NCBI GenBank assembly: GCA_902763805.1
Contig: CACWTN010000005.1
Coordinates: 239,784-303,783, forward strand
DNA length: 64,000 bases
DNA from: an uncultured bacterium
Lineage (GTDB): Bacteria; Cyanobacteriota; Vampirovibrionia; Gastranaerophilales; Gastranaerophilaceae
Direction of reading: 5' to 3'
Shown here: piece by piece, positions 29,163-46,271 of the stretch
Position numbering within the stretch: the stretch's first letter is position 1
Layout: each line of letters begins with the position of its first letter
Program-made: the position numbers and the translations under genes
Notes under the pieces: model-generated
Told to the model about the DNA's origin: nothing
Database searches by the model: none
What the model saw: only the letters and a program-made list of their open reading frames with translations

Positions 29163-30587
29163 TTACACAACTCCTATAATTGAACCTGCAGGAATTTTTG
29201 AAACTGTTCTGTCAGTAAATACTGCTTTTTTGAACTTATCAATTTCTTTTGAATGTTCTTTAACGAAGTTAATAAAACCGTTTGAGTTTTCTGTAAATGT
29301 ATTCTCACCCTGAACAATTTTAACCAGCTTATCACCTTCAAAGAAACATCTTGTACCTTTAACAATTTCTTCGTCACATTTTAAAACACCGACACCTTCA
29401 GCTAAAACGCCTTTTTTGCTTACCAGCTCACCCGCAAAAATCTTTTCTGCTTCGGTAGGTTCGTATTGTTTTACGGCAAGACTGTCTTTGTCAAATTGTT
29501 CAAGTGTTTTGAATGATTTAATTTGAGCCTCATCGCCGTATTTGCCCATTGTTAATTTAAGAGTATTATCGCCGTTTTTATTTACATAGCTTATATTTAC
29601 AGCATCTTTTAATAAGGATTTATCTGCATCTTTAGAAGTTTTGCCGAGTTCTTCCGCTATTTTTGCAATTTTTTCTCTCAATAATGCATCGGAAGAATTT
29701 TCACCTGCATCTGCAAGCTGAGCACAAACATCTTTGTGACTTGTTAAGATTTTATCAATTTTTCCGTCCTTAACAATTACTGCATAATTTTCAGTCGGTG
29801 TGCTGAATTGGAACTGATTTTTACCAGCACCCAGTGTCTTTAATTTTTCTTCAATTCTCTTAAGTAATTCTGCTTCTTTAGAATCTGCTTTTGCATTTTT
29901 CAACTGAGTGTAAACATCTTCCTGCGCCTGTATTACCCTGCTTACATTACCATCCTTCATAAACACTGTGTATTTTCCGACTGGGGTATTAACCTGGAAG
30001 CCTCTCAGTACAGAACCATTTTCTGGGTTAAATACTTTTTCGGAAGCGCTTATTGCATCCTTTAAGCCGTATTCAGCCGCACCGTTTTCAACATGAGTGC
30101 CTGCAAAAGTTTTTGTTTTATTCGGCACATTAAATTTTATTTCACCTTTACTGTTTTTAACAGCCTGCATTGATTTAAGAACAGTCTTTGCTGTTTCTGC
30201 GGTTTTCTTTTCTGCTGATTTAAAGAATTTTTCGTATAACAATTGAGCGCCTTTAATCGGATTACCGCCGCCTTTTTTCATACAACCGATAAGAGCTGCC
30301 GCACCGACTGCACCTGTTACCCATAAACCTGTATTAGATTCATCAGGTTTAGCTGCAGCATAATCAACAGGTAAATTATTTTGGCTAAAACTCTGAGTTC
30401 CCGTCGTCTGCGCAAGCGGTGAAGTCTGACCGTACTGTGATGTCAGCTGTGTGTTTTGAGCACCGGCATCCGCTTTAAAATTAATGTTCGGACTATTAAA
30501 AGCTGCCAAAAAATATGGATTGTTCATTAATGCATTGTAATCATAACTGCCGAATGCACCCAAATTATAGTTCGGTGATATACCCAT
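29163..30587 (-). CDS. 474-aa F-motif protein with two internal repeats
   Basis: Start ATG at 30587 (AGG 7 nt upstream) rather than the TTG at 30605. The N-terminus is Asn/Tyr/Phe-rich and ends in the F-motif NINFKAD (34-40). A Gln-rich linker and one hydrophobic segment (LWVTGAVGAAALIGCM) follow. Two repeats of about 65 residues begin GFQVNTPVGKYTVFMKDG and FQFSTPTENYAVIVKDG; each continues with a DV-x-x-QL element and ends in a KIEEKL/KIAEEL-type helix. No known family. It has its own intrinsic terminator. Possibly a membrane-anchored structural or binding protein. Confidence 0.75.
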   Translation of the reverse strand: MGISPNYNLGAFGSYDYNALMNNPYFLAAFNSPNINFKADAGAQNTQLTSQYGQTSPLAQTTGTQSFSQNNLPVDYAAAKPDESNTGLWVTGAVGAAALIGCMKKGGGNPIKGAQLLYEKFFKSAEKKTAETAKTVLKSMQAVKNSKGEIKFNVPNKTKTFAGTHVENGAAEYGLKDAISASEKVFNPENGSVLRGFQVNTPVGKYTVFMKDGNVSRVIQAQEDVYTQLKNAKADSKEAELLKRIEEKLKTLGAGKNQFQFSTPTENYAVIVKDGKIDKILTSHKDVCAQLADAGENSSDALLREKIAKIAEELGKTSKDADKSLLKDAVNISYVNKNGDNTLKLTMGKYGDEAQIKSFKTLEQFDKDSLAVKQYEPTEAEKIFAGELVSKKGVLAEGVGVLKCDEEIVKGTRCFFEGDKLVKIVQGENTFTENSNGFINFVKEHSKEIDKFKKAVFTDRTVSKIPAGSIIGVV

Positions 30588-30793
30588 AAAATACCTGCCT
30601 TTCAATTAACCTTATTATTCCCTTATATACATGAAGTTTTTTTCTCTTTAAAAATTGACTTTTTGAAGTCATTTACTTAACAAAACTTTACAATGTCTTT
30701 TTTTCCATTTAATAAAAATATTGCGCTCACCTGTTGTTTATGTTAGTATCAAGTAAAATAGTAAAGATAATTATATTAATTAAGGAGTTACTA

Positions 30794-31351
30794 ATGATTT
30801 CAGTAAACGATTTAAAAAATGGCTTAACTTTGGAACTTGATAACGGTCTGTGGACAGTTGTTGAATTCTTACACGTAAAACCCGGTAAAGGAGCTGCGTT
30901 TGTAAGAACAAAACTTAAAAATGCCGAATCAGGAAACGTTGTTGAAAGAACTTTCAGAGCAGGCGAAAAAGTTGCAAAAGCTATGTTAGACCGCAGAGAA
31001 ATGCAGTATTTATATAAAGAAGGCGCTGACTACGTTATGATGGATAACGAAACATACGAACAAATTCAGGTAACTGAAGACCAGCTCGGCGACGGCAAAA
31101 AATACTTAAAAGAAAATATGATAGTTCAAATCTTAAAACATGATACAAGAATTATTGGTGTTGACATTCCTGCTCACGTTGAGCTTGAAGTTGTTGATAC
31201 ACCTCCGGCAGAAAAAGGAAACACTGCTCAGGGCGGTACTAAACCTGCTACACTTGAAACAGGTGCAGTTGTTAACGTTCCGTTCTTTGTCTCTAACGGA
31301 GATATCATAAGAGTTGACACCAGAACAAATGAATATTTAGACCGTTGCTAA
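30794..31351 (+). CDS. efp: Elongation factor P
   Basis: A 185-residue three-domain tRNA-mimic factor that rescues ribosomes stalled at polyproline. It starts MISVNDLKNGLTLEL, and the loop KPGKGAAF places the modifiable Lys at 32. The C-terminal signature region VDTPPAEKG to TGAVVNVPFFV is typical. Start ATG at 30794 has AAGGAG 6 nt upstream; the longer in-frame start at 30734 lies in the leader and is rejected. Followed 20 nt later by accB, an order found in many bacteria. Confidence 0.96.
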   Translation: MISVNDLKNGLTLELDNGLWTVVEFLHVKPGKGAAFVRTKLKNAESGNVVERTFRAGEKVAKAMLDRREMQYLYKEGADYVMMDNETYEQIQVTEDQLGDGKKYLKENMIVQILKHDTRIIGVDIPAHVELEVVDTPPAEKGNTAQGGTKPATLETGAVVNVPFFVSNGDIIRVDTRTNEYLDRC

Positions 31352-35229: not shown

Positions 35230-35652
35230 TTATTTTTTTGCTTTGATTAATTCTACGATTTTATCATAGCTGTTATTTTTAACCCATTTACAAGCCTTGT
35301 GGCAAGTGTCTGTGACAACATCTGTTTTGCTGAGGATATCTTTTGCCTTAGCATTTTTAATATACTTGTTCACAACATCATATTTATGAGCCAGGCCTAA
35401 CAAACCGACAACAACCGCCGCTGTTGCAGCTAATCCGAAAAGAACCGAACCTGCAGAACTCTTTTTTTCTTCATCGCCATAGCCTCTGAAACAAACAGTA
35501 TCCTTATTTGGTTCATTATCTACCGCAAAAACGGATTCTTTATTCCTGCGTACTCCAACGCTTCCGGCTGTTTCCTGTTTTGCAGTTTCTGTTTTTCTGT
35601 CCGATACGCTTCCTACGGTTTCACCGCCGCGGAATGATACACTGGTTACCAT
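35230..35652 (-). CDS. 140-aa F-motif protein with one TM segment
   Basis: Start ATG at 35652 with GGAGG 5 nt upstream; the longer ORF start is rejected. The N-terminus is MVTSVSFRGGETV, and a second copy, TVCFRGYGDE, occurs near residue 62, just before a hydrophobic segment (VLFGLAATAAVVVGLLGLA). The C-terminal part is Lys-rich (CHKACKWVKNNSYDKI). Unknown family. Duplication of the motif before a TM helix is noteworthy. An HLR1 element and a TGA-TATAGA -10 lie upstream; it has its own terminator. Confidence 0.75.
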   Translation of the reverse strand: MVTSVSFRGGETVGSVSDRKTETAKQETAGSVGVRRNKESVFAVDNEPNKDTVCFRGYGDEEKKSSAGSVLFGLAATAAVVVGLLGLAHKYDVVNKYIKNAKAKDILSKTDVVTDTCHKACKWVKNNSYDKIVELIKAKK

Positions 35653-35734: not shown

Positions 35735-35752
35735 GTTACAAAAGTTTACATT
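35735..35752 (+). promoter_or_regulatory. Perfect HLR1-type direct repeat
   Basis: GTTACAAA-AG-TTTACATT matches the cyanobacterial HLR1 consensus (K-TTACA-WW, 2 nt, K-TTACA-WW) at every position. It lies 83-100 nt upstream of the F-motif gene at 35652 and overlaps the stop codon of the PilZ gene. Confidence 0.6.
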
Positions 35753-43937: not shown

Positions 43938-43978
43938 ATAAAGCGGTCAGATTTTTCAAATCTGACCGCTTTATTTTT
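43938..43978. terminator. Bidirectional terminator after plsY
   Basis: A perfect 17-bp stem (ATAAAGCGGTCAGATTT and its complement), 3-nt loop, then TTTT on the plus strand; the minus strand reads into TATTTTTATTATT. Serves plsY and the convergent gene. Confidence 0.85.
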
Positions 43979-44625
43979 TATTGGGCTTTTCCGAATATTG
44001 CCTCAGCAATTTCTTTTAACTTTGCAAAATTATAATTTTTACCGCCTATGTCATATTCATATAATCCGTTTTGTTCCGTTGATATACGGGCTTTTTCTTT
44101 GGTATAACAAACTTCTTCGCCGTCAAACACTTTGTTATCTTTAGTTTTGTCATACGTTGTATCAAAAGATATGTTAATTTCTTTAATCTCACCGTTTTTG
44201 TCATAAATTACCATTATCCATTCTCCTGTTTGGAGCATTGCCCTCGCACAGCGTTCTCCTTCTTCATTCGTTCCGCGTTCAATTTTTGCCTGTTTGGGGT
44301 TATTAGCAACATCGACCAATAATTGATTGGCTTTGCTTATTTGTGTCTGAATTTTACCCCTGTCTCTGTTATAAGCCTCTTTTTTTGTGCGGTCGCTTCT
44401 TACAATCTCATTTTCAGCCGCCACAATTCTGTTACGCATTTCATGAAGTTTTGTATTTAATTCTTTGTAATTATCGAATTTTATTTTTCTGTCGCTATCC
44501 TGTTTAATTCCCAATTGTTCCATTCTTTTGAGCATTAAACTATAAACCTTTGCAGCTATTTGTTTTGAATTTGGTCCAAAATTTACATCAGAAGTAAATG
44601 CATGTGCAATATTTGCCGGCGTCAA
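43978..44625 (-). CDS. C-terminal ORF, probably reached by -1 frameshift
   Basis: A 215-codon ORF with no ATG near its 5' end; the first possible start is a TTG at 44625 with AAAAGG only 1-2 nt before it. The same frame stays open upstream to 44690, across an A-AAA-AAG heptamer at 44640-44646 in the preceding gene. A -1 slip there would give a 380-residue fusion (VHSKKGDLKGLTPANI at the junction). Alternatively the TTG is real: the protein would then begin MTPANIAHAFTSDVNFGP, resembling an F-motif N-terminus. The body is soluble, Lys/Asn-rich, with a coiled-coil-like stretch (KLHEMRNRIVAAENEIV). Unknown family. Confidence 0.6.
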   Translation of the reverse strand: MTPANIAHAFTSDVNFGPNSKQIAAKVYSLMLKRMEQLGIKQDSDRKIKFDNYKELNTKLHEMRNRIVAAENEIVRSDRTKKEAYNRDRGKIQTQISKANQLLVDVANNPKQAKIERGTNEEGERCARAMLQTGEWIMVIYDKNGEIKEINISFDTTYDKTKDNKVFDGEEVCYTKEKARISTEQNGLYEYDIGGKNYNFAKLKEIAEAIFGKAQ

Positions 44626-44630
44626 ACCTT

Positions 44631-45119
44631 TTAAATCACCTTTTTTGAGTGTACCGGAACCGTAACTCTTATATCACCTGTTGTATATTTTTCTCCGCTT
44701 TTCTTATGCTTTCCGGGAGCTTCGCCGGTTCCTTTTGTACCTTTTGGTTTTTTGGGAGCCTGCGTTCTTGATTCTTCACCTGTTTTACCGGCTCCGCCGC
44801 TTCCTGAGCTTCCTTTACCTTCATCTTGCTTCTGCACACCTTGTGAAGAACCGCCTGCCAATGACAGCCACTCAAGAGCCAAATCATCCACAGCCTTGCC
44901 TGCTTTTGCAGCAAGCTTTACTGCGTATGTTGTAATTGAGTTCATTGCACTTACGATACTAATATTATTTCTCACGGTTTTGCCGGTGCCAATATCACTA
45001 ATAAACTTGTTCCATATACTCGCATCAATTTTGTTGTCTTTTTTTCCGTCATTTTCATCTAATTTTCTTGCAATTTGCCCTGCAATAGTCGTGTCCAATA
45101 ATCTGCTTACATCTGCCAT
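44631..45119 (-). CDS. 162-aa protein with low-complexity tail, upstream half of the frameshift pair
   Basis: Starts MADVSRLLDTTIAGQIARK at ATG 45119 with AAGGAG 7 nt upstream; the longer start at 45158 is rejected. Residues about 18-32 (KLDENDGKKDNKIDAS) resemble a calcium-binding EF-hand-like loop. A helical part follows, then a Gly/Ser/Lys/Pro-rich linker (about 85-140). The 0-frame stop is reached four codons after an A-AAA-AAG heptamer, where the -1 frame continues for 220 codons. Function unknown. Confidence 0.65.
   Translation of the reverse strand: MADVSRLLDTTIAGQIARKLDENDGKKDNKIDASIWNKFISDIGTGKTVRNNISIVSAMNSITTYAVKLAAKAGKAVDDLALEWLSLAGGSSQGVQKQDEGKGSSGSGGAGKTGEESRTQAPKKPKGTKGTGEAPGKHKKSGEKYTTGDIRVTVPVHSKKVI
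44640..44646 (-). other. A-AAA-AAG slippery heptamer
   Basis: On the minus strand, TCA-AAA-AAG in the 0 frame is a correct X-XXY-YYZ site for -1 slippage. The 0-frame stop TAA is at 44633-44631. No clear upstream Shine-Dalgarno-like stimulator is visible; downstream GACGCCGGC could form only a weak structure. Confidence 0.5.
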
Positions 45120-45425
45120 AATCTTTCTCCTTGTTGGTTGTGAGGGATTTTTGCACAAAACAACAGAATGATAAAATCATTCCATATTATCTCTTCTCTT
45201 TTCTGCAGGTTTAATCCCTCAATAATAACATTACTTTTCAGATTGTTTAGTAAAATCACTAAACATTTTCAGGTCATAAAGACCCTTGCAAAAATTTTCA
45301 GTCTGTATTCATCCCCCCTCGTTCGACAGTTAATATAATTTCGGCTGTTTTTCGGTTATTAATTTATTCCCCTTGACCAATATATCGACATTTTTTCTAA
45401 AAACTTTAGCATATTAAAAGCATTT

Positions 45426-45443
45426 GTTACAAATCGTTACAAA
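45426..45443 (+). promoter_or_regulatory. Perfect HLR1 direct repeat
   Basis: GTTACAAA-TC-GTTACAAA: two identical half-sites with 10-bp periodicity, matching the HLR1/RpaB consensus at every position. About 105-123 nt upstream of the 45549 ATG. Confidence 0.65.
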
Positions 45444-45449
45444 ATAGTA

Positions 45450-45467
45450 TGTGTAAAGTTATGTAAA
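45450..45467 (-). promoter_or_regulatory. Second, opposite-strand HLR1 repeat
   Basis: On the minus strand, TTTACATA-AC-TTTACACA, one mismatch at a W position. It lies 6 bp from the forward site; the pair could bind two regulator dimers or serve both divergent genes. Confidence 0.55.
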
Positions 45468-45548
45468 ATAATTTTTTTAATTTGTCAATTCATATTATTC
45501 ACAAAACTTATATCGGGTACAAAAGTGTGAAAATATGAAAGGAATACT

Positions 45549-46271
45549 ATGAACGCTATTACAAATTCTAATCAGCCGGCATTTGGTATGAGAGAACGTT
45601 TAAAACCTGCTGATACTATTCTCAGAAAAGCTAAAAATACATATCAACATCTTTCTCCACATAATTTATCAAGCAGAATAGAAAAAGCATATAACTTAGA
45701 AATGGATCCTCTTTATTTAAACAGTGAACCATATATAGAATTCATTGAAAAGAAAAAAAATATATCAATAAACCGTAAATTATTATACGTTTTGCGTAAG
45801 TTTGAAAATAAACTCGTTCATTACAGAAATCTCTTAAAATCCAGTCTAAATCCCGTAAAATTTTTGATAGAAGAATTGAAAAACGGAGGCAAACTTGGCA
45901 ACAGCAGCGAAGAAGTTGCTTTAGCAACTATCATTGGAAGAATTAACGGACAAAAAAATATTTATGCGGGACATATTAACGGTTTAGACCATGGGGTTAC
46001 TTTTATAACCAATAAACCTGTTGAAAAAGGGAAAAAACTATTCTTTAAGAACAAAGATGCTATCATCATTGACCCGCAGCTTGGTATTACAGACTATGCA
46101 GATAATTATTTCTTAAAAATTAAAGACTTAATTAAAACCCCGTTTAAGAAAAAACCTCACTTTAGCGTGACACCTTCAGATAATTTCAGGCTAAATGATG
46201 CTCAAACGGAAGATTTAAAGAAACATTATCCTGAACTTTTAATAGAAAATTTCAGACCTGTTAAAGTGTAA
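45549..46271 (+). CDS. 240-aa F-motif protein with transglutaminase-like triad pattern
   Basis: Begins MNAITNSNQPAFGMRERL (F-motif Phe12). A helical N-terminal half (about 20-105) leads to GNSSEEVALATIIG, LDHGVTFI and DAIIIDPQLGITDYAD. The order G-N-C-x-E, DH and D-P is typical of the transglutaminase/cysteine-protease fold, but the nucleophile position is Ser here. This reading is inference. AAAGGA precedes the ATG. Upstream lies a double HLR1 element, the best regulatory sites of the window. Confidence 0.7.
   Translation: MNAITNSNQPAFGMRERLKPADTILRKAKNTYQHLSPHNLSSRIEKAYNLEMDPLYLNSEPYIEFIEKKKNISINRKLLYVLRKFENKLVHYRNLLKSSLNPVKFLIEELKNGGKLGNSSEEVALATIIGRINGQKNIYAGHINGLDHGVTFITNKPVEKGKKLFFKNKDAIIIDPQLGITDYADNYFLKIKDLIKTPFKKKPHFSVTPSDNFRLNDAQTEDLKKHYPELLIENFRPVKV

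Follow-up and report, generated by a model that had tools for sequence, protein, structure and literature searches.

RpaB-type HLR1 sites phased to sigma-28 promoters and to a second promoter class in a non-photosynthetic gut relative of the Cyanobacteria

Among the regulators through which cyanobacteria respond to light and redox state, RpaB is a central one, and it has been kept by non-photosynthetic relatives in which it has no known role. The stretch of DNA analysed here (the window; 64,000 nucleotides of an uncultured bacterium of the Gastranaerophilaceae) raises the question of what RpaB may control in such an organism: the intergenic region 45120-45548 carries two copies of HLR1, the site of cyanobacterial RpaB, on opposite strands. 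We used the consensus KTTACAWW-N2-KTTACAWW, which reads WWTGTAAM-N2-WWTGTAAM towards the gene that is served. HLR1-A (45426-45443, plus strand) is GTTACAAATCGTTACAAA, composed of GTTACAAA-TC-GTTACAAA, and has no mismatch; HLR1-B (45450-45467, minus strand), separated from it by a gap of 6 bp, is TTTACATAACTTTACACA, composed of TTTACATA-AC-TTTACACA, and has one. A preliminary description of the sequence had recognised both and had read them as a double element upstream of what we call the F-motif gene (45549-46271, plus strand), which encodes a protein of 240 aa with the N-terminus MNAITNSNQPAFGMRE and without a Pfam match. The two elements are there as described; however, each is phased to a divergent promoter of its own, HLR1-A to a leftward sigma-28 promoter and HLR1-B to one that reads rightwards into the F-motif gene, and the notion of two elements for one gene was therefore dropped. 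The first gene after the sigma-28 promoter encodes 162 aa (44631-45119, minus strand), and the next one on that strand (43978-44625), which follows after 5 bp, encodes 215 aa; neither could be assigned to a known family, and the two are probably co-transcribed.

An obvious concern is that matches to HLR1 arise by chance in AT-rich intergenic DNA. Sequences with two mismatches are consistent with this explanation in that they exceed their number in shuffled versions of the window only modestly (17 versus 9). However, the window holds two exact matches where the shuffles average 0.01, and no shuffle reached two. Across the whole genome (1.96 Mb, estimated completeness 99.7%), exact HLR1 occurs 45 times and the reversed pattern 6 times; with at most one mismatch the numbers are 134 and 42. 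Gene-level statistics were taken from a sample of 464 kb, consisting of the window and 20 stretches of 20 kb. Intergenic DNA makes up 11% of this sequence and contains 20 of the 21 exact sites (binomial p ~1e-18) and 38 of the 41 sites with at most one mismatch. The sample is rich in sites (21 exact HLR1, with about 11 expected) and thus not neutral for densities, but this should not bias the intergenic share or the spacing, both of which are calculated given the sites. Pairs of the half-site KTTACAWW are selective in their spacing: 21 are separated by 2 nt, and between 0 and 3 by each of the other spacers from 0 to 15. The genome scan that the preliminary description had proposed as a check thus showed HLR1 to be strongly over-represented upstream of genes, and the site at 45426 is one of a large set. 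On the counts in genome and window and on the spacer specificity, to which the phasing of promoters described below adds, we rejected the chance explanation and leave it practically no probability.

Which regulator would read these sites? The genome encodes four regulators of the OmpR type, and the RpaB orthologue that the preliminary description had suggested looking for is among them (L031:1486-2268). It scores 355.8 bits on the NCBIfam model NF045944, with a cut-off of 330, whereas the other three score 152-206 bits. In its DNA-binding domain it shares 72% identity with a Synechococcus RpaB, and the two recognition helices (DTRVVDVHISRLRSKLE; Synechococcus sequence at L209) are the same; the best compared protein from outside the cyanobacterial phylum reaches 47%, and the genome's own other regulators reach at most 31%. 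The nearest relatives of the protein (81-97% identical) come from records labelled as Candidatus Gastranaerophilales or as uncultured gut bacteria. The system resembles the NblS-RpaB system of the Cyanobacteriia, whose RpaB is orthologous and whose sites have the same 18-bp consensus and the same 10-bp period (PMC13421787). The match to NblS is weak in this genome: the best candidate for a sensor kinase scores 319.9 on the NblS model (NF045911; cut-off 1000), and none of the eight kinase-like proteins scanned is an NblS above the curated cut-off.

Alternatively, a different member of the OmpR family, reading a direct repeat like that of WalR, could own the sites. In the WalRK (YycFG) system of Firmicutes, too, the regulator is of the OmpR type and the site is a TGTWA direct repeat, its TTACA/TGTAA half-site is shared with HLR1 (TGTWAH-N5-TGTWAH; PMC4168254), the WalK score of the kinase candidate (305.8) comes close to its NblS score, and three further OmpR-type regulators are available in the genome. 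However, the WalR repeat has a period of 11 bp (PMC4168254), whereas pairs of KTTACA are found 27 times at a period of 10 bp and twice at 11 bp, and the WalR box was rejected on this ground. The DNA-binding domains of the remaining three regulators are divergent, as are those of the compared relatives from outside the phylum, with identities far below that to cyanobacterial RpaB. Moreover, among 60 genomes of the class Vampirovibrionia, the two families without any match near the RpaB cut-off (f4 and f5) also have no HLR1 excess. Ownership of the sites by a regulator other than RpaB is therefore quite improbable.

The consensus of sigma-28 promoters is TAAAGTTT-N11-GCCGATAA. Many HLR1 sites, when read towards the gene, are followed by this promoter at a fixed distance. 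The motif TAAAG begins 16-18 nt from nine, and 27-28 nt from three, of 36 exact HLR1 sites of the genome, the larger offset being one helical turn beyond 16-17; on the other side of the same 36 sites TAAAG does not cluster. The composite of HLR1 and sigma-28 promoter occurs 14 times versus 0 in the genome and 33 times versus 1 in 12 genomes of the family, with a single match outside the family. Conversely, all ten sigma-28 promoters of the 464 kb that score at least 15 out of 16 are preceded by an HLR1, at 16-17 or 27-28 nt (with at most one mismatch in nine cases and three in the tenth), a figure that may be inflated by the richness of this sample in HLR1 sites. In the window, the -35 box TAAAGTTT (45401-45408, minus strand) lies 17 nt downstream of HLR1-A and is followed after a spacer of 11 by the -10 box GTCGATAT (45382-45389, minus strand). 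The composite is exact, where 0.04 would be expected even with two mismatches allowed, and the promoter itself matches the consensus at 14 of 16 positions, as compared with 15-16 elsewhere. The genome also encodes FliA (TIGR02479, 232.8 bits; cut-off 189.6) and a flagellin. One feature counts against the proposed arrangement, namely the length of the leader of about 260 nt that the leftward transcript would carry (45120-45378, minus strand). This leader has two clear hairpins and folds slightly better than shuffled sequences (z -1.64); a search against Rfam found no known RNA in the window, the leader included.

A second class of promoters, which we call class B, shows the same phasing. Its boxes have the form GCAATTT-N14-ACTTTAT; KGCAATTT (or TGAAATT) lies 16-17 nt from HLR1, and ACTTTAT follows 23 nt later. 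The boxes were defined from these same HLR1 sites. KCAAW is found at an offset of 16-17 in 8 of the 36 exact sites, and the composite of HLR1 and class-B promoter occurs 33 times versus 0 in the 12 family genomes, 3 times in family f9 and once in f3. At the locus under discussion, the -35 like box GTCAAT (45484-45489, plus strand) lies 16 nt downstream of HLR1-B, and, counted from its first base, the CTT of the -10 like box ACTTATAT (45506-45513, plus strand) comes 23 nt later, a distance shared with the paralogues; the core TGTAAMNNWWTGTAAM-N16-KCAAT is exact. Two further window sites face F-motif genes on the minus strand: the second exact HLR1 (35735-35752, plus strand), with GGCAAATTC at 16 nt, faces the gene at 35230-35652, and a site with one mismatch (30677-30694, plus strand), with GTCAATTTT at 17 nt, faces the gene at 29163-30587 and has efp (30794-31351) as its opposite neighbour. 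In the form GCAATTW-N14-ATACTTTATATATATAAG, the promoter type is strongly conserved in Gastranaerophilales, for example at L258, L259, L270, L271 and L282. In total, a promoter of either class lies 16-17 (or 27-28) nt downstream of over half of the HLR1 sites, and for roughly one in three exact sites no promoter of either class follows. Plain -10 boxes gave no signal at a fixed distance from HLR1; the sigma-28 and class-B boxes did.

These observations suggest, with good though not full confidence, that RpaB binds both sites and activates both divergent promoters, the locus being a back-to-back module. As a response regulator of the OmpR family acting on a presumed signal, the RpaB of this organism would occupy HLR1-A and HLR1-B as dimers; from HLR1-A the dimer would promote leftward transcription of the genes at 44631-45119 and 43978-44625 through the sigma-28 promoter, and from HLR1-B rightward transcription of the F-motif gene through the class-B promoter. 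Each dimer would sit at about -71 to -54 (centred at about -62) on one helical face, a position predicted from the promoter boxes under the usual sigma spacing, and would bring in RNA polymerase with either FliA or the class-B sigma factor. The predicted position is close to the range of about -66 to -45 from which cyanobacterial HLR1 activates (PMC13421787). One could also imagine that bound RpaB acts mostly as a repressor, or that it helps one of the promoters and blocks the other. In cyanobacteria, HLR1 at -38 to +23, overlapping the start site, represses (PMC13421787), and with only 6 bp between the two sites two dimers may exclude each other. However, the two sites do not cover the -35 boxes but are found upstream of them, and their phasing at 16-17 nt is like that of dozens more, which makes repression an unlikely reading. 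The same layout of HLR1 and promoter recurs across the genome and the family, and under the activation model RpaB would be a co-activator of a regulon of sigma-28 and surface-protein genes in a member of the cyanobacterial phylum that does not photosynthesise.

The coupling to sigma-28 sets this organism apart both from known sigma-28 regulons and from the HLR1 module of the Cyanobacteriia. Flagellar regulons elsewhere use the same promoter, and FliA is present here too; however, most FliA promoters are not known to need an activator, whereas every strong promoter sampled here has a site of the OmpR-family type upstream of it in fixed phase. We found no precedent in a literature search for such a pairing of a sigma-28 promoter with an OmpR-type site. 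Unlike the sites of the Cyanobacteriia, those described here are phased to sigma-28 and to the second promoter class. The targets differ as well: photosynthesis genes are not expected among them, and we find families without known function, flagellin and candidate small RNAs instead. The neighbours of HLR1 include flagellin, an SLH-domain protein, a LysM/EF-hand-like protein and many families without a Pfam match. Targets of the sigma-28 composite that are conserved across the family are a protein of about 70-75 aa (MEDLMVDYGEMTSFDFNSLDY) and the MGMSASQARLL proteins.

Proteins that start with a motif like I/V/L-x-F-K/G/S-A/G, mostly without an assigned family, are often encoded behind HLR1. 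Apart from the three in the window (29163-30587, 35230-35652 and 45549-46271), they were found at L072, L074, L075 and L082, and in other families at L132, L149 and L157. In the sample from the genome itself, HLR1 accompanies 8 of 12 F-motif genes versus 36 of 251 others (p = 1e-4), the motif having been drawn from those genes; an independent set, with 3 of 20 versus 0 of 25 (p = 0.08), did not confirm the association. The short N-terminal motif is possibly a sorting signal. Relatives of the F-motif gene at 45549-46271 could be detected in 11 of 60 genomes of the family, and since they are rare and the sequence upstream of them is mostly different, conservation of its promoter was set aside as a line of evidence.

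A conserved transcript without an open reading frame but with a strong terminator lies behind HLR1 and a class-B promoter in at least six genomes (locus centres of L264, L269, L272, L273, L274 and L276; L303 from about position 343 has the core only). It has the core UACACUACCUACUACACACUAACCUUCUACACACAC and the 3' end CTCTATC..GATAGGG-T9, and may be considered a candidate for a small RNA under the control of RpaB. The genome under study has a candidate small RNA of its own at L006:1525-1676 (C2:49125 onward), with an HLR1, TGAAATT...ACTTTATATATAT, UUCCCUAAUCCCUUCUU and a GAGAAG terminator with a run of T; the divergent HLR1 pair at this locus resembles that of the window. Neither of the two matches an Rfam family. 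By analogy, these candidates recall PsrR1 of Synechocystis, a small RNA controlled by RpaB.

The distribution of regulator and site bears on their age. RpaB above the NF045944 cut-off is present in 45 of the 60 Vampirovibrionia genomes. In family f1, that of the genome under study, every one of the 48 genomes examined has an HLR1 excess (1014 versus 148), and f1, f3, f8 and f9 combine RpaB with the excess; the remaining classes of the phylum, when pooled, show it too (432 versus 51). Families f2, f6 and f7 encode RpaB but have no HLR1 excess, even when only the core KTTACA-N4-KTTACA is sought. The presence of RpaB therefore does not imply HLR1, and the pattern in these three families suggests rewiring or a different site. 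A second RpaB-like protein (about 270 bits) was seen in f6.

That Melainabacteria have homologues of RpaA, RpaB and NblS was published in 2013-2014, together with the suggestion that regulators of this kind came before light sensing (PMC3787301, PMC4040986), and reports from the same years describe both flagellated and non-flagellated Gastranaerophilales. We found no report of HLR1 in these organisms among the best-ranked 30 of 115 literature matches, and the HLR1 site code and its coupling to sigma-28 appear to be new. The preliminary description had concluded that regulator and site predate photosynthesis in this lineage. This does not follow: the data fit a common ancestor that already had RpaB and HLR1, be it photosynthetic or not, and three Vampirovibrionia families have RpaB without the excess of sites. 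It is conceivable, although we would not favour it, that the pair was inherited from an already photosynthetic ancestor and was kept by the Vampirovibrionia after the loss of photosynthesis. The occurrence in other classes and in several families of the Vampirovibrionia fits either order of events; however, Melainabacteria were reported to be without a trace of photosynthesis genes, and a non-photosynthetic ancestor was inferred (PMC3787301). A more speculative scenario, to which we give a rather low probability, starts from a flagellated, fermenting ancestor in which RpaB bound to HLR1, before oxygenic photosynthesis, co-activated sigma-28 promoters, promoters of envelope proteins and small RNAs. 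In the same tentative scenario the pair would then have been re-used: the Cyanobacteria would have lost flagella and moved the intact pair to photosynthesis genes, and the Gastranaerophilales would keep the older wiring.

Independent of this order of events, the exact DNA code of RpaB is present in non-photosynthetic relatives of the cyanobacteria and is phased to sigma-28 promoters, which turns a regulator without a known role there into one with a testable regulon and role. The finding also adds what appears to be an uncommon instance of a sigma-28 regulon coupled to a two-component activator, and HLR1 in a gut relative of the cyanobacteria provides a way to ask what RpaB does outside photosynthesis.
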